Assembly (NCBI GenBank): GCA_030431755.1
Contig: JAUIIK010000018.1
Coordinates: 1 to 56,302 of the forward strand
Origin: Chloroflexia bacterium
GTDB lineage: Bacteria > Chloroflexota > Chloroflexia > Thermomicrobiales > CFX8
Direction of reading: 5' to 3'
Length of the DNA: 56,302 nucleotides
The notes below the pieces were generated by a model. It made no database searches, was not told where the DNA came from, and worked only from the letters and a program-made list of their open reading frames with translations. Both the position numbers and the translations under genes were made by a program. This document shows, piece after piece, positions 17 through 33,110 of the stretch (within the stretch, counting starts at the first letter, position 1; the number at the start of each line of letters is the position of its first letter).

Positions 17-874
17 CTACTGACCGGCGGCGGCTTCCTCGATCATCTGGAAGAGTTCGTCGTAGGTCTCGATGCCGGTGACGAGCTCGCCGTTGAGCAG
101 GATCGACGGGGTGCCGGAGACACCGATCGCGCTGGCCTGCTGGCGGGACTCGACGACGGCGGCCTGATGGGTGTGGTTGTCCATGCAGCTGCCGAAGGCG
201 TCCATATCCAGCTCCAGGTAGCGCGCGAAGAGGTCGAACGAGATCCGCTCCAGCCCCGCTAGCTGCGGGTTGTCGACGTTGTAGAAGATCAGATCGTGAT
301 ATTCCCAGAACATGCCCTGGTCGGCGGCGCAACGGGCAGCCTCGGCCGCCAGCACCGAGCCGTCGCTGAGGAAGGCGTAGTCGCGGTACTCGAAGGTCGC
401 GATCCCGGTTTCGACAAAGGTCTCTTCAATAACTGGTTCGACCACACGGGCGAACTGACGGCAGCCTGGTCACTGGAAATCCCCGTATTCGACGATCTCG
501 ACCGCTGCGTTCGGGTCGCCGAGCACGCGGCCGTTCTGCGGGACCTCCGGGTTACGTGCAGGCGGCACGACCACCGCTGATAGCGGGATGCCCTCTGCGC
601 CGCCCTCCGGTGTCGCCGAAGCCGTCGCGGTCGGAATCACCTCGCCACTGGTGGCTTCATCGCGGCTTGCTTCCGTCGGTGTTGCCGCGGCTTCTTCGGT
701 ATCGGACTCAGATTCCGTCGAGCCGGCGTCACTTTGCGCGGTCGTTGGTGTGGCCGCTGCGCCATCGGTGTCGTCGTCATCATCGTCGCCGCCACAGGCC
801 ACGACGACGAGCGATGCCAGCGCCACGACCAACAGCATGAGTGCCAGCCGGCGGATTGTCTGCGCTCCAGTCAA
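17..874 (-). CDS. DsbA-like thioredoxin-fold lipoprotein with in-frame TGA at the first active-site Cys
   Basis: Read through one in-frame TGA, this is a 285-residue secreted thiol oxidoreductase. The N-terminus (TTG start at 874, GAGG upstream) has a hydrophobic segment ending in a lipobox (VVAC, then GG and an Asp run), so it is probably a lipoprotein. A long Asp/Thr/Ser/Ala-rich linker follows to about residue 100. The DsbA fold then begins with VEYGDFQ, codon 135 is TGA, and the same frame continues PGCRQFARVVEP to a TAG at 17-19, with the cis-Pro loop seen as SGTPSILLNG. The family motif here is DFQCPxC, so TGA replaces the nucleophilic Cys of CxxC. The gene lies 15 nt after the FAD oxidoreductase gene and is probably cotranscribed. 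Either a selenoprotein (UxxC), a fresh nonsense mutation, or a base error; family call firm, status open. Confidence 0.8.
470..472 (-). other. In-frame TGA, candidate selenocysteine codon
   Basis: On the minus strand the codons read GAT TTC CAG TGA CCA GGC TGC CGT CAG. The frame is unbroken on both sides, so this is not a frameshift. TGA differs from the expected TGC or TGT by one base and sits exactly at the redox Cys. Downstream mRNA could pair GACCA (starting within the TGA) with UGGUC 22 nt later, or form a small UGGU-CGA-ACCA hairpin whose loop starts about 30 nt after the TGA. Neither is a clear bacterial SECIS by eye. Confidence 0.45.
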
Positions 875-889
875 TGTGCCTCGTCCTGC

Positions 890-2071
890 CTATCGTGAGA
901 TCGTGCGCCCACGGCGCCCGTAGTTCGAATCTGCCATCCAGGGATTGTCGCCGTCGAAGCGGCTGAGCGAGAAGGGCGCGAGATCGGCTGTCTGCGGCTC
1001 GCCGTGGACGACCCACTCAGCCAGACACTTGCCGATGGCCGGGGCCGTCTTGAAGGAACTGCCCGAGTCGCCGGCCATGATGTAAAGCCCGGCGACGCTC
1101 TCCGGTTGGTCGATGATCGGGCGGTGATCGGGACTCATCATGTAGAGCCCGGCCCAGCCGCCGCGCATGATCGCGGCCCGGTAAATCGGGAAACGTGCTG
1201 AGAGCACCCGTCGTGCGTGGTTGACGTAATCGTTGTCGATAGTCTGGTCGAAGTCGTTGGGGTCGCCGCGCAACGAGCCGGATTCGGCCCCGATCAGCGT
1301 CAGGCCGCCGGTATCGGCGCGCAGCCAGGCGTCATTGATCGCGTCGATGACCACCGGCTGACTGCCCTTGAAACCGAGCGGCCGGCGGTAAAGCGCGACC
1401 TTTGTCCGCTGGACATAAAGGCCGGGGTCGAGGCCCAGCGGGTCGAGCAGCTGCCCTGCGCCGATGCCCGGCGCGGCGACGACCGTGTCGGTGTCGATCC
1501 GTCCATCGGTCGTCTGGACGCCGGTGACTTTGCCGTCCTGGGTGAGAATCGAGATAACCTCGCAACGCGTCATAATCTCGACGCCGTGCGCCAGCGCGGC
1601 TTCGGCGAACGCCTGGGTCGTCGCGTTCGGATCGGCCCAGCCGCTCTCCGGTTCGTAAGCCGCCGCTCCGATATCGTCCACGAACATCTCCGGGAACAAT
1701 TCAGAGAGTTCAGCGGTCGTTACGATGCTGGTGTTGATCCCGATTTCCTGCTGGTCACGGACATTGGCGGCCAGCTCGTCTTCATGACCTGGCGCGACGA
1801 CCTCGACGAAGCCGGGCTGCTCCCAGCCGCAGTCGCCGCCGATCTCCTCGGCCCAGTTCTGGAAGATCTTCAGGCTCTCATAGGCCAGCTTGGACTCGTA
1901 GGGATTGGTGTAGTGCATTCTGACCAGCGCGCCCGATTTGCCGGACGCGCCGGAGCCGAGCTCGCCGCGCTCGACGAGGACGACCTGCCCCGCCCCGAGC
2001 TTCGCGAGGTTGAACGCCGTGCTGACTCCGTTGACTCCGCCGCCGATAACGACAACGTCTGCTGTCTTCAT
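890..2071 (-). CDS. FAD-dependent oxidoreductase, sarcosine oxidase beta/DAO family
   Basis: A 393-residue flavoprotein of the D-amino-acid oxidase/sarcosine oxidase beta superfamily, expected to oxidise a secondary or N-methylated amine to an imine in the cytoplasm. The dinucleotide-binding motif GGGVNG is at residues 10-15 followed by the ribose-binding acid (VERGELGSG), then SGKSGALVR near residue 50 and the C-terminal FAD contact GDSGSSFKTAPAIGK. Length is normal for the family. The next gene starts 15 nt after its stop. A second flavoprotein of monomeric sarcosine oxidase type lies at 52.1 kb, but the two are not close relatives. Substrate cannot be told from sequence. Confidence 0.85.
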   Translation of the reverse strand: MKTADVVVIGGGVNGVSTAFNLAKLGAGQVVLVERGELGSGASGKSGALVRMHYTNPYESKLAYESLKIFQNWAEEIGGDCGWEQPGFVEVVAPGHEDELAANVRDQQEIGINTSIVTTAELSELFPEMFVDDIGAAAYEPESGWADPNATTQAFAEAALAHGVEIMTRCEVISILTQDGKVTGVQTTDGRIDTDTVVAAPGIGAGQLLDPLGLDPGLYVQRTKVALYRRPLGFKGSQPVVIDAINDAWLRADTGGLTLIGAESGSLRGDPNDFDQTIDNDYVNHARRVLSARFPIYRAAIMRGGWAGLYMMSPDHRPIIDQPESVAGLYIMAGDSGSSFKTAPAIGKCLAEWVVHGEPQTADLAPFSLSRFDGDNPWMADSNYGRRGRTISR

Positions 2072-2226: not shown

Positions 2227-4026
2227 TCAGTCAGCCGCCATCGCCGCGCTGTCTTCCTCCGATTCGTAGATGTTGTCGCCACGGTGGAGCCGGATCGCCG
2301 TCTTCGCCGTCTGGAGCATCGCTCGCGACGTCGGCGCTTTGGCCGCCAGATAGCGTGCCATGGCGACCATGACGCGGTTGGCTGCCTCCGGTTGAAAGTC
2401 GCGCAGCTCGTTGAAGAGCTGGGTGCCGGCCTCGAGCATCTGGTAGGAGTGGAACTCGCCATCCTCGCGCAGCAGCACATGGCCGAGCGTTGCGATCAGG
2501 GGTTTCGGGTCGTGCCCCTGGGTCAGGTAACGCCAGACGACCATGGCCGACTCATCGACGCGCTGTTCGATGTCGGTCAGCTCCAGCAGCTTCGCCAGCA
2601 ATGCGTCAGCGTCGGTCGGCTCGCGGTCGAGGTTGCGGTTCTCCGGCAGGCGGGCCGCAGGCATGTTCAGGAAACGGTCCAGATAGATGCTCATCGCGCC
2701 ATGGTAGATCCCGCGCACGAGCTCCTGAGACGGCGACCGCTGCATCATCTGGTGAACGGCGTTGTTATAGGTAAAGGTGTGGAGCACCGTGATCCAGTCG
2801 GCGAACTCGTTCGACGTGTGGAAACGCGCGATACGGAGCGCCGAAGCGTAGCTGAGCGTCAGCGTTAGGTCGGTCAGCGGCGCGCCGTCGGCCAACGCGG
2901 CGCTGACGGCCTCGACGCTGGCTTGCGGGTCATCCCCGAGCAGGACATCGGCGAGCGCCTGCATATCGTCGAACCAGTCATCCCGGCGCGGCGCATCGAG
3001 CGCTTCGTCGAGGTCCTCCAGCGCATGCTCGACCAGCTCGATCAAATCGATCGGGTAGCGCCAGGAGTTGAGCTCTTCCGAGCGATTGGCGTTGGTCAAC
3101 GAAGGAATCAGGCTCGGCAGGACTTCGTCGGCCTGGTCCCAGCCAATCGAATCGAGGACCTCGCAGGCTTTGTTGACGAAGTCGAAGCTGTGGCCGCCAT
3201 CGAGGAAGTAGTGGTCGGTCGCGGCGGCGGCCAGCATGTCGGCGATCTGCTCCGGCTCCAGCCCGGCATTAATTGCCGTCAACAGGGCGCGCTCGGCCCC
3301 GTCGCGGTCGCGCACTTCGACGAAGTAGCGGAACCAGGTCTTGAGCCGTGCGGGCGGCACGCCCTCGGTCGGCAGCTCATCAAGCTTGAAATGGGGCGGC
3401 ATCCCGTCACAATCGCGGGCGACGTTGACCATACCGTGGTAGAGCGCCAGTACCTGGTCATCGGATTTGAGATGCGGCAGCATGTTGTTCATCGCCGAGA
3501 GGATCGTCAGCCCAGCCTGCCAGCCGGATTCGCGGTAGCGCGCGCCGAACTTCGCGCCGACGCCGACGATCTCCTTCGCATCGACGCCGTTCTCATGCAG
3601 CGCCAGGACGGACTTGACCGACAGCAGATTGAGGTTCTGCTCCAGTCCGTCGCTTAGCCGGTTCAACCAGCGTGCCTTCCAGTCCGTCGACGGCGGAATG
3701 ATGTTGACGTAGACGATGCCGTCTTCGATCTTTGTGCCGTAAACCTGCACATCGTCGGCGAAGGGGTCAAAGGTCCCGCCGCTTTCCAGGTCGAAGCGGG
3801 CGTGATGCCAGTGACAGGTCAGGATGCCGTCGCGAACCGTGCCGCGAGCGAGCGGAAACCCCATGTGCGGGCAGCGGTTATCAACGGCGTAGGGTTCGCC
3901 GTCACTGATGAAGACCGCGATGCCATGCCTCCCGCCGGAGACGATCGTCGGATTCTTCAAGCCTTCCAGTGGACCCACCTCGACGAATTTCTCGCACGCA
4001 CTGCTCTCTGCCCGGGTGGCGCTCAT
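2227..4026 (-). CDS. Rieske [2Fe-2S] protein with large helical C-terminal domain
   Basis: 599 residues. The first 110 form a Rieske ferredoxin-type domain with both cluster motifs intact: CPH at 52-54 and CHWH at 71-74, followed by the usual FDLESGGTF turn. The remaining roughly 480 residues are rich in Leu, Ala and acidic residues and look entirely alpha-helical; a His-rich stretch (DHYFLDGGHS, residues 271-280) stands out. I do not recognise a catalytic domain in it, and it is not the alpha subunit of a ring-hydroxylating oxygenase, which would carry a mononuclear-iron DxxHxxxxH motif after the Rieske part. No signal peptide. Function unknown beyond electron transfer by the cluster. Confidence 0.8.
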   Translation of the reverse strand: MSATRAESSACEKFVEVGPLEGLKNPTIVSGGRHGIAVFISDGEPYAVDNRCPHMGFPLARGTVRDGILTCHWHHARFDLESGGTFDPFADDVQVYGTKIEDGIVYVNIIPPSTDWKARWLNRLSDGLEQNLNLLSVKSVLALHENGVDAKEIVGVGAKFGARYRESGWQAGLTILSAMNNMLPHLKSDDQVLALYHGMVNVARDCDGMPPHFKLDELPTEGVPPARLKTWFRYFVEVRDRDGAERALLTAINAGLEPEQIADMLAAAATDHYFLDGGHSFDFVNKACEVLDSIGWDQADEVLPSLIPSLTNANRSEELNSWRYPIDLIELVEHALEDLDEALDAPRRDDWFDDMQALADVLLGDDPQASVEAVSAALADGAPLTDLTLTLSYASALRIARFHTSNEFADWITVLHTFTYNNAVHQMMQRSPSQELVRGIYHGAMSIYLDRFLNMPAARLPENRNLDREPTDADALLAKLLELTDIEQRVDESAMVVWRYLTQGHDPKPLIATLGHVLLREDGEFHSYQMLEAGTQLFNELRDFQPEAANRVMVAMARYLAAKAPTSRAMLQTAKTAIRLHRGDNIYESEEDSAAMAAD

Positions 4027-4333: not shown

Positions 4334-5146
4334 ATGACAACAATGATGACGACGGAGGTCGAAGAGCGGCTCGGCGGCGATATCTTGTTTCAGCGGGATG
4401 GCAGCGTCGCCTGGCTTACCTTCAACCGTCCGGATGCCCGCAACGCGCTGACCTTCGATATGTGGGAAGAGCTGGCGCGGGTCTGTGACGAGCTTGCCGA
4501 CGACGATGAGTTCCGGGTGCTGGTGCTGACCGGCGCCGGGGATCGGGCCTTCGTCGCGGGGACGGACATCAATCAGTTCAAGGAGTTCACCGACCCGCAG
4601 CACGCGATCGAGTACGAGCAGCGCATCAGCATGGTGACGGAGAAGCTGGAGCGCTTTCCGCGGCCGACGATCGCGGCGATCCGTGGCTACGCCGTTGGAG
4701 GCGGGGCGTCGATTGCGCTGGCCTGCGACCTGCGCGTCTGTACTCCGGACGCGAAGTTCGGCGTGCCAATCTCCCGGACGCTTGGCAACACGCTGGCGGC
4801 CGGCACGGTGGCCCGGATGATCGACCTGCTCGGCCCGGCGCGCGCCAAGGAAATCATCTTCACAGCGCGCATGGTCGACGCTGAGACTGCGCACGGCGCG
4901 GGGCTCGTCAACGATATCTTCGAGCCCGATACCTTCCACGAGAGCGTCCACGAGCTGGCTCAGACGATCGCCGGTCACGCCCCGCTGACGATCCAGACCT
5001 TCAAGGAGACGGTGCGCCGTATCCTCGACGAACGCGGCCCGGAGCGCTACGAGGATCTGATTCTCAAGGCCTACATGAGCGAGGACTTCATGGAGGGTGT
5101 TCACTCCTTCCTCGAGAAGCGCACGCCGGAATGGAAGGGCCGCTAA
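4334..5146 (+). CDS. Enoyl-CoA hydratase/isomerase family protein
   Basis: 270 residues with the crotonase fold: AGTDINQF forms the first oxyanion-hole strand and the GYAVGGGASIALACD block the second. The start at 4334 follows GGAG by 6 nt; in-frame Met codons at 4346 and 4349 are alternatives. The segment that in enoyl-CoA hydratases reads FGxPE carries FGVPIS instead, so one of the usual catalytic glutamates is not where expected; hydratase activity should not be assumed and an isomerase, hydrolase or racemase-type crotonase is possible. It lies in the same direction as a CoA-transferase 750 nt downstream, which fits acyl-CoA metabolism. Confidence 0.88.
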   Translation: MTTMMTTEVEERLGGDILFQRDGSVAWLTFNRPDARNALTFDMWEELARVCDELADDDEFRVLVLTGAGDRAFVAGTDINQFKEFTDPQHAIEYEQRISMVTEKLERFPRPTIAAIRGYAVGGGASIALACDLRVCTPDAKFGVPISRTLGNTLAAGTVARMIDLLGPARAKEIIFTARMVDAETAHGAGLVNDIFEPDTFHESVHELAQTIAGHAPLTIQTFKETVRRILDERGPERYEDLILKAYMSEDFMEGVHSFLEKRTPEWKGR

Positions 5147-5202
5147 GCGATTGGTACGATTTGCTTAGCATCCGAATTCGACAACCATGCGGAGGCACAT
5201 CC

Positions 5203-5442
5203 ATGACTACCACCGTAAAAGTCAGTAGTCGCAACCAGATCGTGATTCCGGCCGAAGCGCGACGAGCGCTCGGAATCGAACCGGGCGATCAGTTGATCGT
5301 GTCCGTGCGGGACGGGTTGCTCGTTATGATTCCAAAGCCTGATGACATTCTCGCTCAACTGCGCGGCCTCCACAAAGAGGTCTGGGCGGATGTCGACGTG
5401 GAGGATTACATCAATGAGGAACGTGATGCGTGGCAGGACTAG
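5203..5442 (+). CDS. vapB: AbrB/MazE-type antitoxin of a VapBC module
   Basis: 79-residue protein with a SpoVT-AbrB swapped-hairpin DNA-binding domain: KVSSRNQIVIPAEARRALGI followed by GDQLIVSVRDGLLVMIPKP. The C-terminal acidic half (DVDVEDYINEERDAWQD) is the expected toxin-binding tail. The start at 5203 is set by GGAGG at 5191-5195; an upstream in-frame start at 5131 would lie inside the hydratase gene and is unlikely. It overlaps the PIN toxin start by 13 nt. It should bind and silence the toxin and repress its own operon. Confidence 0.88.
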   Translation: MTTTVKVSSRNQIVIPAEARRALGIEPGDQLIVSVRDGLLVMIPKPDDILAQLRGLHKEVWADVDVEDYINEERDAWQD

Positions 5443-5873
5443 ATCATGCGCTGAGCCCGTACTCGGTTCTGGGGTTGGATACGTCGCTGTTCATCTACTT
5501 CGTCGAAGATCATCCACAATTTGGCGAGGTATCCGAAACGGTCTTTCAGCGACTTGGAGGTGGCGCCCAAGGAGTGACATCCGTCATCACTCTGATGGAG
5601 ATATCCGTGAAACCAATTCGCGAGCAACTGACCGACGTCGCCTATCTGTACTCTGGATTTCTCGAGTCAATTGAGAACTTGGCGATCATCCCGATCCACG
5701 CTGACGATGCCTGGCTCGCTGGTTCACTTCGAGCAATCAACACACTGCGGCCAGCGGACGCGCTGCAGGTCGCGGCGTGTATTGGGGCAGGTGCGGATGT
5801 CTTCGTGACGAACGACCGTCGACTTCGCCGGATAAGTGAGATCGACGTACTCTGTCTTGCCGACTATGTGTAG
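5430..5873 (+). CDS. vapC: PIN-domain toxin of a VapBC module
   Basis: 147-residue PIN-domain RNase. The acidic residues of the metal site can be seen at D17 (LGLDTSLFIYF), E57 (TLMEIS), D110 (RPADALQ) and D129 (VTNDRRL), so the enzyme should be active. GTG start at 5430 overlaps the end of the antitoxin gene, giving translational coupling. The pair has slightly lower GC than its neighbours and sits between two acyl-CoA genes, so it may be an insertion into an older operon. Confidence 0.87.
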   Translation: MAGLDHALSPYSVLGLDTSLFIYFVEDHPQFGEVSETVFQRLGGGAQGVTSVITLMEISVKPIREQLTDVAYLYSGFLESIENLAIIPIHADDAWLAGSLRAINTLRPADALQVAACIGAGADVFVTNDRRLRRISEIDVLCLADYV

Positions 5874-20998: not shown

Positions 20999-21137
20999 GC
21001 CGGTGCAATGGGGCAACGGCGGCGGCAACGAAGCCGCAGACGCGCTTCAACATCTCCTCCCGTAGCAATGGGGCTACGGGTAAGCCCGGCGCTGGAGCCG
21101 AAACGACCGCCATCGGGGGCGGTTGCCCAACGCCGGG
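20999..21137 (+). promoter_or_regulatory. Structured leader of the MMPL gene with repeated hairpins
   Basis: Four hairpins lie in a row: 20999-21020 (GCCGGTGC, loop AATGGG), 21022-21037 (GCGGC, loop AACGAA), 21059-21080 (CCCGTAGC, loop AATGGG) and 21106-21123 (ACCGCC, loop ATCGGG), the last enclosed by CCCGGCG/CGCCGGG at 21085 and 21131. Stem sequences differ while three loops stay nearly the same, as in a repeated RNA module. I cannot match it to a riboswitch class I know. The start codon is 28 nt downstream. Confidence 0.45.
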
Positions 21138-21164
21138 ACACAGGGGTACGAAGGGGTATTCACC

Positions 21165-23348
21165 ATGTTCCAACACCTTGCGCGATTTTGCTATCGCCGC
21201 CGCTGGCTCGTCGTCGCCGGTTGGCTGGCCTTGCTCGTCTCTTTGGGCGCGCTCGGGGTCCTGTTCGGCGGCGAGTTCCGCACCGAGGCGGCGCTGCCCG
21301 GCTCGGAGAGCCAACGCGCTTTCGACCTGCTCGAAGAGCACGGCTTCGACGACCGGGCCGGCGAGGAGGGGCAGATCGTCTTCGAGGCTGACCAGGGCGT
21401 CCTCGATCCGTCCGTCCGCGCGCCGATGGAGGCCTACTTTACAGCCATCACGAGCAGCGATCTCGACCTCATACTCGTCTCGCCCTACGAGGACGCTGGG
21501 GCGGGTCAGATATCGGAGGATGGGCAGGTTGCCTACGCGACGCTCATGTTCGCCGACCGCCCGGTTGAGGAGTACGACCATGCCGCGACCGAGATCGTGG
21601 CGCTTGGCAACGCTGCCGGGGTAGACGGTCTACGAATCGAGTACGGCGGCTGGATCTTCGCCGACGAGTCGGAGCCCTTCTCAGAATTCATCGGACTGAT
21701 CGGCGCGGCAGTCATCCTGCTGATCGCCTTCGGTTCGTTGCTGGCGATGGGCGTGCCGATTCTGACGGCGCTCTTCGGCATCGGCACCGGCGCGAGCCTG
21801 GCGATGCTCGGGACAAACCTGATCGGGATGCCCGACTTCGCGCTCGCCGTGGCGATGATGATCGGCATCGGCGTCGGGATCGACTACGCCCTCTTCATCC
21901 TCACCCGCTACCGAACCGCGCTGCACGATGGCTATGATCCGGAGAGCGCGACGGTGCTAGCGCTCGACACCTCAGGCCGGGCCGTCTTCTTCGCCGGGTT
22001 GACCGTCATGCTGGCGGCGCTCGGGCTGATCACGATGAACCTCGACTTCATCAGCGGCATCGGCCTCGCCATCGCCGGCGCGGTACTGATGACGATGCTG
22101 GCCGCGCTGACGCTTCTACCGGCCTTGCTCGGTTTCATCCGCGAACGTATCGACCGCTTCGGCCTGCCGCATCGCAAGCGCGTGGAAGCCGGCAGCGAGG
22201 GCCGCTTCTGGCAGCGCTGGAGCGGCCTGATCCAGCGCCGGCCACTGGCCGCGCTGATTGCCGGCGGCGCATTCCTGCTCATCCTGACAATCCCGTTGTT
22301 CGGCATCCAGCTAGGCTTCAGCGATGCCGGCACCCGGCCGGAGGAGGACACGACCCGGCAGGCCTACGATCTCCTGGCCGACGGGTTTGGTCCCGGCTTC
22401 AACGGGCCGCTGCTGCTCGTCTCCGAACTGCCCGGCGGCGAGGCTGATGTCGCGGCTCTCGACGCCCTGACGACTGAACTGCGCGCGACCGACGGCGTGG
22501 CAGCCGTCAGCCCGGTCACTGTTAGCCCGGACGGCGAGCTTGCCATCATCCAGCTCGTCCCGACGACCGCGCCGCAGGACAAGGAAACGGCCGAGCTCGT
22601 CTACCATCTGCGCGATGATGTTCTGCCCGACGCCGGGACATCGAGCGCTGTGCTCGTCTCCGGCATGAAGGCGCTGGAGATCGACTTCTCGGACTACTTC
22701 ATCGAACGGACGCCGCTCTTCTTCGGCGTCGTCCTCGGTGTCTCGTTCTTGTTGCTGCTGGTCGTCTTCCGTAGCATCCTCGTGCCGCTCAAGGCCGTCG
22801 TCATGAACATGGTCTCGATCGGCGCGACCTTCGGGATTCTCGTGGCGGTCTTCCAGTGGGGCTGGCTCGGTGGTTGGGTCGGCATCGACTCGGTTGGTCC
22901 AACCGAAGCCTGGGCCCCGATGATGCTCTTCCCGATCATCTTCGGCCTCTCGATGGACTACGAGGTCTTCCTGCTCTCGCGCATTCGCGAGGAATACGAC
23001 CGCAGCGGCGACAACGCCAGCGCGGTTGCGCAGGGGCTGGCCGGGACTGCGCGGGTGATTACCGCGGCGGCGGCGATTATGGTTGTCGTCTTCACCGCTC
23101 TGGCGCTCTCGCCCGACCGCTCGATCCAGCTGCTCGGCGCGGGCCTGGCGCTGGCGATCCTGATCGACGCGACCGTCGTTCGGCTGGTGCTTGTCCCGGC
23201 GACGATGGAGCTGCTCGGCGACCGCAACTGGTGGATGCCGGCCTGGCTCGAACGCCTCGTGCCGGTCGTCCACGTCGAGTCGGAGCGGGCAGTCGCGGAA
23301 GCCGCCCCACGGCGTTTGCCGACGCCGGCTGAAGTCGTCGCGGACTGA
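21165..23348 (+). CDS. MMPL-family RND transporter
   Basis: 727 residues with the two-fold RND layout: a first membrane segment, an outer domain (about residues 45-190), five segments around GIGVGIDYALFILTRYR, a second outer domain, and a second block with LSMDYEVFLLSRIREEY. The two Asp-Tyr motifs are the proton-relay sites of the MmpL group. Such proteins export lipids, lipopeptides or drugs. ATG 21165 follows AAGGGG. Single gene, bounded by a structured leader and a strong bidirectional terminator. Confidence 0.92.
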   Translation: MFQHLARFCYRRRWLVVAGWLALLVSLGALGVLFGGEFRTEAALPGSESQRAFDLLEEHGFDDRAGEEGQIVFEADQGVLDPSVRAPMEAYFTAITSSDLDLILVSPYEDAGAGQISEDGQVAYATLMFADRPVEEYDHAATEIVALGNAAGVDGLRIEYGGWIFADESEPFSEFIGLIGAAVILLIAFGSLLAMGVPILTALFGIGTGASLAMLGTNLIGMPDFALAVAMMIGIGVGIDYALFILTRYRTALHDGYDPESATVLALDTSGRAVFFAGLTVMLAALGLITMNLDFISGIGLAIAGAVLMTMLAALTLLPALLGFIRERIDRFGLPHRKRVEAGSEGRFWQRWSGLIQRRPLAALIAGGAFLLILTIPLFGIQLGFSDAGTRPEEDTTRQAYDLLADGFGPGFNGPLLLVSELPGGEADVAALDALTTELRATDGVAAVSPVTVSPDGELAIIQLVPTTAPQDKETAELVYHLRDDVLPDAGTSSAVLVSGMKALEIDFSDYFIERTPLFFGVVLGVSFLLLLVVFRSILVPLKAVVMNMVSIGATFGILVAVFQWGWLGGWVGIDSVGPTEAWAPMMLFPIIFGLSMDYEVFLLSRIREEYDRSGDNASAVAQGLAGTARVITAAAAIMVVVFTALALSPDRSIQLLGAGLALAILIDATVVRLVLVPATMELLGDRNWWMPAWLERLVPVVHVESERAVAEAAPRRLPTPAEVVAD

Positions 23349-23411: not shown

Positions 23412-24641
23412 TTACCGCGTCTGAACTGACAGGCCGTGCCGCAAGCTGCGGACCGCGACGACAGCGAACGGGATGGGCAAGGCCACGAGGCCGAGCAGCA
23501 GCAAGGCGGTCTCGAGCGACAGGCGCTCAACCATGAAGCCGAAGCCGATGCGGCCAACGGGCACGCTGAGCCAGCCGATCGCGCCGGTGATGCCCAGCAA
23601 GCGGGCGCGCATTGAGCCGGGGATACGCTCGAAATAGACGGCGTACTCGACCATGTTCGTCAGGCTCAACCCCAGCCCGATCAAAGCCAGAACCGGCAGC
23701 ACGACCGCCAGTGGCGGCAACGGTGACAGGATCAGCAAGCCGAGCGGCACAGGCAGGAAGCCGCAGAGCAGGACTTCGCGGCGCGGCAGCCGGTGGCCGA
23801 TCCAGCCGGCGAGCAGCGTTCCCGCCAGCGATCCGGCGGCAAGGGTCGCGGCCATGCTACCGAACGCCACCGCCGAGTCAAATACTTCGGCGGCGTAGAC
23901 CGGCAGCAGCAATGTCTCGACCGGGCCGATCACCAGATTCATCGCCGCCAGGAAGATGATCAGTGGAAAGAGCACCGGCTCGCGCCGCACGAAGCGCAAT
24001 CCCTCGCTGAGGGAGCGCAATACCCCGCTCTTGACCGTGTCGTCATCTTCCTGGAGGAGGTCGCCGGGAACTCGCGTGGCGACCAGCGCTGCCGAGATCA
24101 GAAAGGTCGCCACGTCGAGCCAGAGGACATTGGCAGCTCCGAAGCCCGCGATCAGTACGCCGGCCAGCGCCGGACCGAGCAGCGCGCCGCCGGTAATGCT
24201 GCCTTCAAGCCACGCATTGGCTCGTTCGAAGGGAATCCCGGCGCGTGTTGCGGCATCGGGCAGGACGCTGTACCGGGCAACCTGGGCCGGCAGATCGAGC
24301 AGCGTGCCGAGAAAGACAAGCCCGACGAGGACCGCGAAGGGCAGCCCCACCGTCAGATGCAGGAGCGCAATCAGCGCGACCGTCGCGCCACTTGCGAGAT
24401 CGCCGAGGATACTTGCCTTGCGGTAGCCGATGCGGTCGACGATGGCCCCGCCGAAGAAGAGCGAGATGACGACCGCGAGCGCCGCGGCGAAGACGGTAAC
24501 CCCGGTCCGGGCCGCGCTACCGGTCGTCTCCAGCACGAACCAGGGTATCGCTGTCAGCGTGATGATGTCGCCGAGGCGCGAGAGGGTGTCGGCGGCAATG
24601 ATGGTGGCGAGCGGCCCACGCGTTGTAGGTTGTGTTGGCAT
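23412..24641 (-). CDS. MFS efflux transporter
   Basis: 409 residues, 12 membrane segments, same subfamily as the transporter at 8.7 kb (shared ITLTAIPWFVLETTGSAART and FFGGAIVDRIGYRKASILGD). Probable proton-driven exporter of a small toxic compound. No linked regulator; the HAD phosphatase gene lies upstream in the same direction 38 nt away and may be cotranscribed. Confidence 0.87.
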   Translation of the reverse strand: MPTQPTTRGPLATIIAADTLSRLGDIITLTAIPWFVLETTGSAARTGVTVFAAALAVVISLFFGGAIVDRIGYRKASILGDLASGATVALIALLHLTVGLPFAVLVGLVFLGTLLDLPAQVARYSVLPDAATRAGIPFERANAWLEGSITGGALLGPALAGVLIAGFGAANVLWLDVATFLISAALVATRVPGDLLQEDDDTVKSGVLRSLSEGLRFVRREPVLFPLIIFLAAMNLVIGPVETLLLPVYAAEVFDSAVAFGSMAATLAAGSLAGTLLAGWIGHRLPRREVLLCGFLPVPLGLLILSPLPPLAVVLPVLALIGLGLSLTNMVEYAVYFERIPGSMRARLLGITGAIGWLSVPVGRIGFGFMVERLSLETALLLLGLVALPIPFAVVAVRSLRHGLSVQTR

Positions 24642-31050: not shown

Positions 31051-31241
31051 GCGGATGCGCTGTCGAGGAGTACCCTGTAGGCGGGGTGTCCTGGCGCATT
31101 GTGAAGAGAGACGCGCGTACGGGTTGAGTAGATCAAGCAGATACCAGAGTGTGGTGACGCGGCAACGTCGGCCGCGAAGGGGCAGCCGGCAAGCGCCCGG
31201 CTGCATGATTGACAAGCCCGACATTGATCGGATCTTGCGCC

Positions 31242-33110
31242 GTGGCTGAGGACTCCGGCGCAACCAGCTTCAGCCCACCGCGCGCCTCCAGCCGCCTCGC
31301 CCGCTTCATTCCGGCAATCGACTGGCTCCCGAACTACCGCCGGGTCGACCTCGGGGCAGACCTCAGCGCCGGATTCCTCCTCACCGTCCTGTTAATCCCG
31401 CAGAGCATGGCCTTCGCGTTGCTCGCCGGATTGCCCGCCAGCAGCGGCCTCTATGCCGCAACGGTGCCGGCCATCGTCTACGCCTTCTTCGGATCGTCAC
31501 GCCATGTCAACGTCGGGCCGGCAGCGATCATTTCGTTACTGACCTTCTCCGGCGTCGCGGCGCTGGCAGACCCGGGCACCGGTGAGTACATCGGCCTGGC
31601 GATGCTCCTGATGCTGATGGCCGGGATCATCCAGCTCGGGCTGGGTCTGGTGCGAGCCGGGTTCATTGCGCGCTTCTTCTCCCAAGCTGTCCTCAGCGGT
31701 TTCACCTCCGCCGCTGCTATCGTCATCTCATTGACACAGATCGAGAATTTGCTCGGGCTGGATGTCGAGTCGGGCGGCTCGGCTATCGAGACGATGATCG
31801 CGGTTGTCCGCGAGCTCGGGAACATTCACTGGATCACGGCGTCTATCGGCATTGGGAGCCTGCTGGCGTTGCTGGCTTACCGCCGCTATGTGCCCCGCTT
31901 GCCGACCCACCTGTTGCTCATCGCGTCACGCTTTCCCGCGCCGCTCATCCTGGTAGCCGGCGGGTCACTGCTCGTCTGGGCGCTTGGCCTCGACAGCGAT
32001 GGCGTCAACGTCGTCGGGGACATCCCGCGCGGTCTGCCAACACCGGCGTTGCCGGAGCTAGGGCGGCAGGCTATCGTCGATCTCGTCCCGGCGGCGATTG
32101 CGATCACCTTCATCGGCTACGTCCAGTCGATCTCGATCGCCCGGACCATCGCCGCGCGCGAGAAGGTCGCCGTCGACGCGAACCAGGAGCTGCACGCGCT
32201 CGGGCTCTCGAACATCGCCGGGTCCTTCTTTGCAGGGTTCCCGGTGACCGGCAGCTTCGCGCGCACAGCCGTCAACTACCAGGCCGGCGCGCGCACCCAG
32301 GTATCGGGGTTGGTCGCCGCCGGTTTGATCATCCTGACACTGCTGGTGCTGACGCCGATCTTTTACTACCTGCCGAACGCGGTCCTCGCCGCGACGATCA
32401 TCGTCGCCGTCTCCGGGTTGATCAACGTGCGCGAGGCGTTGCATTACTTCGATGTGCGCCGGCTTGATGGCCTGACCGTCACGGCGACCTTCGTCGCGAC
32501 GCTCGCCATCGGCGTCGAGTGGGGCGTCATCGCCGGGCTGGCTTTTTCGTTGGTCGTCTTCATCTGGCGCAGCACCGACCCGCATGCGGTCGAGGTCGGC
32601 TACGACGAGCTCGAAGACCGCTTCCGCAGCCTCAGCGGCGACCCCGAGGCGGTGATCTTCCCGAACACGCTGATCCTCCAGATATCCGCGCCGCTGTACT
32701 TTGCGAATATCGAAGAGGTGGCGCGCCGCATCGAAGACGCCGTCGCCGACCGCGAAGACCTCGGCTGGGTCGTCCTCGACTTCAGCGGCGTGGCCGATAT
32801 CGACGCTGTCGCTGTCGACCTGCTCGAGGACATCCTGCGGAGCTACCGGGTTGCCGGGATTACGCTATTGCTGGCCGGTGTGCGCGGCCATGTGCTGGAT
32901 GTCTTCGAACGCGCCGGGTGGCGGGAGAAACACCCACGAGCATTGCACCATCCGACGGTGCGCCTGGCGCTGGAGTCGCTTGGCTTGCTGGACCGCTACA
33001 CCGGCGGCGGCAGGATTGGACTCTTTGGAGCGCTGCCGCAGGAGGAGATCGTGCCCGGCGTCGAAGCCGACGAGCCGTCGGTCAGGGAGCATAGATCCAC
33101 AGATCGTTGA
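31242..33110 (+). CDS. SulP-family anion transporter with STAS domain (paralog)
   Basis: About 622 residues, same plan as the gene before it: SulP signature FLLTVLLIPQSMAFALLAGL, NYQAGART loop, and a C-terminal STAS domain (WVVLDFSGVADIDAVAVDLL) plus an extra acidic tail. GTG 31242 is my choice; TTG 31209 is also open. The two arose by tandem duplication but have diverged well. Its last 29 nt overlap the end of the convergent kelch gene. Confidence 0.9.
   Translation: MAEDSGATSFSPPRASSRLARFIPAIDWLPNYRRVDLGADLSAGFLLTVLLIPQSMAFALLAGLPASSGLYAATVPAIVYAFFGSSRHVNVGPAAIISLLTFSGVAALADPGTGEYIGLAMLLMLMAGIIQLGLGLVRAGFIARFFSQAVLSGFTSAAAIVISLTQIENLLGLDVESGGSAIETMIAVVRELGNIHWITASIGIGSLLALLAYRRYVPRLPTHLLLIASRFPAPLILVAGGSLLVWALGLDSDGVNVVGDIPRGLPTPALPELGRQAIVDLVPAAIAITFIGYVQSISIARTIAAREKVAVDANQELHALGLSNIAGSFFAGFPVTGSFARTAVNYQAGARTQVSGLVAAGLIILTLLVLTPIFYYLPNAVLAATIIVAVSGLINVREALHYFDVRRLDGLTVTATFVATLAIGVEWGVIAGLAFSLVVFIWRSTDPHAVEVGYDELEDRFRSLSGDPEAVIFPNTLILQISAPLYFANIEEVARRIEDAVADREDLGWVVLDFSGVADIDAVAVDLLEDILRSYRVAGITLLLAGVRGHVLDVFERAGWREKHPRALHHPTVRLALESLGLLDRYTGGGRIGLFGALPQEEIVPGVEADEPSVREHRSTDR

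Follow-up and report, generated by a model that had tools for sequence, protein, structure and literature searches.

The end of the contig analysed here carries a gene for a DsbA-like lipoprotein that is interrupted by one in-frame TGA, together with a SECIS-like hairpin and, upstream, genes for a DAO-family FAD oxidoreductase and a Rieske-domain protein. The window, that is, the whole stretch of DNA that was analysed, comprises 56,302 nucleotides of a contig from a Chloroflexia bacterium of the order Thermomicrobiales. Its relevant features are as follows.

17 to 874, minus strand: DsbA-like (Thioredoxin_4) lipoprotein gene; 285 residues with a single in-frame TGA, TTG start at 874 (alternatives possible), TAG stop at 19-17.
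470 to 472, minus strand: in-frame TGA, predicted selenocysteine (Sec) 135, nucleophile of a UPGC motif; TGA in both paralogues too, TGC or TGT in Cys relatives.
461 to 463, minus strand: TGC codon of the resolving Cys138 of UPGC, from sequence and alignment.
794 to 838, minus strand: hydrophobic signal segment and lipobox VVA-C, with the lipidated Cys27 at 796-794, by sequence inspection.
107 to 112, minus strand: Thr255-Pro256, the TP (cis-Pro) loop of DsbA-fold oxidoreductases, (nearly) invariant in alignments.
436 to 455, minus strand: SECIS-like hairpin GUUCGCC-CGUGU-GGUCGAAC, a stem of 5 bp and 2 bp, interrupted by a single bulged U, that closes the loop CGUGU (448-444) 21 nt past the UGA.
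890 to 2071, minus strand: upstream neighbour, an FAD-dependent oxidoreductase of the DAO family, separated by 15 nt and perhaps in the same operon.
2227 to 4026: Rieske-domain protein, further upstream, ending with UGA.

Read on the minus strand from 874 to 17, the gene forms a frame in which residue 135 (472-470) is the TGA, in the context EYGDFQ-U-PGCRQF. This agrees with the preliminary description, which had reported a frame continuous save for one TGA in place of the first CPxC cysteine (DFQ-U-PGC) and had left the strand unstated. Reading the plus strand of 17-874 yielded nothing. The TAG stop codon lies 17 nt from the edge of the contig, at its extreme end, and ordinary gene calling splits the gene into two. 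By inspection, the N-terminus of the product is a lipoprotein-like signal, MLLVVALASLVVVA-C27, and a low-complexity linker rich in Asp, Thr, Ser and Glu lies between this signal and the DsbA-type thioredoxin domain.

Two Pfam families matched the read-through product: Thioredoxin_4 (PF13462) at residues 114-279 (1.3e-30; 107.2 against a gathering threshold of 23.2) and DSBA (PF01323; 2.9e-12; 47.2 against 25.6). Because both matches run across the TGA, 17-874 is one gene. An AlphaFold model computed from an alignment of 24 homologues (pLDDT 96.4, pTM 0.91) places the Sec position immediately ahead of the first long helix, 37-55, and the features of membership in the Thioredoxin_4/DsbA superfamily, [CU]xxC at the start of helix 1 and the TP loop, are both present. 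One alignment row (L073) was out of frame, and no conclusion draws on it. With a TM of 0.83, BdbD (B. subtilis) and DsbA (C. diphtheriae) were the top solved structures in Foldseek, and a sequence search concurred, with BdbD and DsbA/TsdA of C. diphtheriae at E values of 4.6e-18 and 8.6e-20. These two proteins are thus the nearest solved sequences and folds; however, they are about 25-27% identical to the product and are Cys enzymes, unlike the Sec-coding gene described here. The best family match was NCBIfam NF041057, the Rcas_1661 family thioredoxin-like (seleno)lipoprotein, which aligned with residues 17-280 over profile positions 2-246 of 247 (1e-42) at 146.4 bits, short of the 190 bits that its curated cut-off requires. 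In the order, a single homologue exceeded that threshold, the copy in genome G001 (212.6 bits); every other one, the two paralogues included, stayed below it. NF041057, whose 'Rcas' we take to stand for Roseiflexus castenholzii, a Chloroflexota, shares with the protein a lipoprotein segment and Sec or Cys at the UxxC site, and is its nearest family although the score places the protein outside it. A 2026 review enters the same family as 'DsbG-like protein, UxxC' (PMC13188914).

The preliminary description had also proposed cotranscription with an amine oxidase. The neighbour is a DAO-family FAD oxidoreductase, near enough to that assignment, and cotranscription of the DsbA-like gene with 890-2071, 15 nt away, is plausible. 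A scan of the window for other coding frames interrupted by TGA left only a site at 23422 (+), with coding-like GC3 on both sides and no convincing gene; it looks more like the boundary of a gene than like a Sec codon.

The genome, a 97% complete draft of 5.15 Mb in 272 contigs of which the window is contig C179, contains the machinery for selenocysteine insertion, on other contigs of this draft assembly. SelA is encoded on C26 (506 bits; cut-off 268) and SelD on C13 (363 bits). SelB, on C202, is a protein of 632 aa with a GTPase domain, a beta-barrel and two winged-helix domains (SelB-wing_2 and wing_3), scoring 318 bits in the genome-wide search and 336 on the protein. A tRNA-Sec with a TCA anticodon lies on C206 (78 bits; gathering 47). 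Furthermore, the selD gene (L015:1501-2436, minus strand) has an in-frame TGA of its own, close to the N-terminus, where the catalytic Cys or Sec usually stands (STAG-U-ASK). All four genes proposed as a check, selA, selB, selC and selD, are therefore present in the same genome, and the refuting outcome, a genome without Sec machinery, was not found. Read-through in the DsbA-like gene, its two paralogues and selD could also be expected if UGA stood for Trp or Cys throughout the genome. However, UGA is not simply reassigned, because it ends the neighbouring Rieske-protein gene, and it also terminates the long ORFs 21123-23348 and 31209-33110; in-frame UGAs were found only at catalytic Cys sites, and the genome encodes SelA, SelB and a genuine tRNA-Sec. 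We regard reassignment as exceedingly improbable.

A genome search found three Thioredoxin_4 genes in total (on C179, C225 and C5), each with exactly one TGA, located at UPxC. The paralogue on C225 (L098) is followed directly by a VKOR homologue (5093-5710, plus strand), the only one in the genome, and then by a DtxR-type regulator. The paralogue on C5 (L097) has a CtaG-type cytochrome oxidase assembly gene (1121-2203) upstream of it, and may perhaps act in copper-centre maturation. Reading of 50 homologous sites from 61 genomes of the order showed TGA at 11, in 9 genomes, always at the same codon and as the sole stop in the domain; the rest carried TGC or TGT. Placement of the order as Thermomicrobiales follows from homologues in it whose compared region is identical to that of the named records Thermomicrobiales bacterium ACE_CHL14 and Thermomicrobium sp. 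SKW109. SelA was present in 9 of the 9 genomes with a TGA copy; in one of these (G041) its two pieces lie on separate contigs and each scores under the cut-off. Copies with TGA at this codon also occur outside the order, in Caldilineae, Ardenticatenaceae, Binatota and others. One such record (L193), titled as a Klebsiella pneumoniae MAG in GTDB, encodes a TGA-containing DsbA that closely resembles the Binatota one and is probably mislabelled. In Caldilineae, one frame (L143:2890-4050) contains tandem DsbA domains, the first with TGA (UPYC) and the second with Cys (CPFC).

This recurrence bears directly on whether the gene is an ordinary Cys DsbA whose catalytic codon became TGA through a nonsense mutation, which would make it a pseudogene, or through a sequencing error. 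The gene does border the contig end, and TGC and TGT each turn into TGA by one substitution. However, three paralogues and many relatives would need the identical error at the same codon, the remaining frame is intact with a normal GC3 of 0.79, and the Sec machinery is present. Only 8 of the 285 codons are TGA or one substitution away from it (the TGA at 135 included), and two paralogues and eight genes elsewhere in the order have TGA at that codon with no other stop in the domain, which upholds the earlier argument that a random nonsense hit there is improbable. Likewise, the proposed alignment with relatives revealed either Cys (TGC/TGT) or TGA at the codon 135 site and no random stops. An error or pseudogene thus appears already refuted in practice by recurrence, and we give it very little weight.

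Sec and Cys forms have also exchanged within the family. A tree of 65 domains requires no fewer than 12 changes between the Sec and Cys labels, at least 4 of which are forced by strongly supported branches. One switch falls inside a single genus, where one genome carries the Sec form (G016) and two carry the Cys form (G014 and G015). In one genus, a Sec copy (L047) has a SECIS-like hairpin that is absent in the Cys copies (L055 and L049), and all three genomes encode SelA.

In the window, the hairpin at 455-436 has the layout GUUCG-CC-[CGUGU]-GG-U-CGAAC. The published bSECIS model (PMC13188914) has a loop of 3-9 nt with a G in its first two positions and a stem of 4-16 bp, 16-37 nt after the UGA, with an MFE of at most -7.5. 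The CGUGU loop and the 21 nt spacing fit this model, as does the loop G at position 2 followed by U, whereas the stem length fits only if one bulge is allowed. For the bare 20-mer the folding energy is -5.9 to -6.6 kcal/mol; with more flanking sequence it reaches -7.6 to -9.1. When the UGA is part of the folded stretch, the MFE structure is a different one. A strict, bulge-free scan scored the window hairpin 0; it was seen by comparison with relatives and with one bulge allowed. Among the order-level Sec genes, 10 of 11 have a 5-nt loop starting 21 nt after the UGA with the sequence NGUNN (usually CGUGN), and the eleventh (L092) has the loop CGUGU at 17 nt after the UGA and a quite different stem sequence. 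Most relatives have an uninterrupted form of the hairpin, and that of the window copy is weaker than theirs.

The evidence for the hairpin rests on the family, because shuffling the synonymous codons of the window gene yields such a hairpin with a GU loop in 5% of cases; single-gene tests of this kind are weak, with p values of 0.01-0.06 each. A strict hairpin at or below -5 kcal/mol was found in 22 of 30 Sec genes compared to 1 of 67 Cys genes, a difference for which the Fisher value of 3.5e-14 overstates independence, these genes being mutually related. Covariation among 8 closely related hairpins was modest, with two pairs changed on both sides and 14 of 500 shuffles scoring as high, and clearly beat slid registers. 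Other SECIS-like hairpins, 20-40 nt past the TGA, were observed in L103, L104, L112, L176 and relatives, which belong to other lineages of this enzyme family, for example CGCCCUG[GGUC]CAGGGCG and GAGUGCA[GUC]UGCACUC. The preliminary description had noted that the downstream RNA can fold, which holds, and that no clear SECIS was visible; the hairpin with bSECIS features 21 nt after the UGA largely resolves that doubt. With one bulged U and middling stability, this hairpin is likely, and only likely, to be the SECIS of the window copy. Its weakness relative to those of relatives could fit a UGA acting mainly as a regulated stop, such that without selenium a short N-terminal lipopeptide is made and the enzyme arises only by infrequent readthrough. 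Termination does compete with Sec insertion in bacterial selenoprotein genes. However, both the sequence and the fold of the C-terminal domain are conserved, which indicates selection on the full-length product, and we consider a mainly regulatory stop unlikely.

Together, these data argue that the in-frame TGA of the DsbA-like lipoprotein gene is read as selenocysteine (probability about 95%), because the genome has the full Sec machinery and both paralogues, like numerous relatives, again carry TGA at that codon. The earlier proposal of a secreted selenoprotein DsbA is supported by the machinery, the recurrence of TGA and the SECIS-like hairpin, all at the level of sequence. The product would be an exported, lipid-anchored thiol:disulfide oxidoreductase of DsbA type with a Sec nucleophile. 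In the proposed mechanism, SelD would produce selenophosphate and SelA would turn Ser-tRNASec into Sec-tRNASec, which SelB would bring to the ribosome while binding the hairpin 21 nt past the UGA, such that the UGA at 472-470 would be decoded as Sec and not as a stop. Once exported, the lipoprotein would form a Sec135-Cys138 selenenylsulfide and hand it to substrate proteins, oxidizing or rearranging their thiols. Re-oxidation of Sec-DsbA would probably fall to the single VKOR homologue of the genome, a step proposed because VKOR adjoins one paralogue and is the only one present. We judge the chances of this VKOR partnership to be about even, and within the mechanism confidence is lowest for re-oxidation by VKOR and for the substrates; no work linking selenocysteine, VKOR and DsbA was found in the literature searched. 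That all DsbA-fold genes found are Sec forms is less usual, and is suggestive only, given 97% completeness and 272 contigs. More tentatively still, the organism may have no Cys-type DsbA at all, all three of its DsbA-fold oxidoreductases being Sec forms, in which case extracytoplasmic disulfide formation (via VKOR) would be wholly selenium-dependent; we lean against this possibility.

DsbA-like UxxC selenoproteins are not a new idea. They have been known since 2005-2006, first from the Sargasso Sea in 2005 (PMC1088965) and then in complete genomes in 2006 (PMC1794560); GOS data contained 'DsbA 1/2' selenoproteins (PMC2398784), and by 2016 a bacteria-wide survey counted 45 DsbA-like UxxC genes in 41 organisms (PMC5029168). 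The statement that such proteins had been proposed from metagenomes thus refers to a described family (PMC1088965, PMC2398784, PMC5029168, PMC13188914). With its known members the present gene shares the fold class, the UxxC position, a bacterial SECIS-like element right after the UGA and frequent Cys homologues. However, those members were mostly defined on PF01323/COG2761, whereas PF13462 scores best here.

No description of DsbA selenoproteins in Thermomicrobiales was found in the literature searched, and this lineage thereby gains a well-supported selenoprotein that is predicted to be exported. The gene also exposes an annotation problem, in that ordinary gene calling cuts it in two. Moreover, the family offers a natural experiment, in which the Sec and Cys forms of one enzyme interchange repeatedly, and the SECIS-like hairpin is for the most part found in Sec copies and missing from Cys copies.
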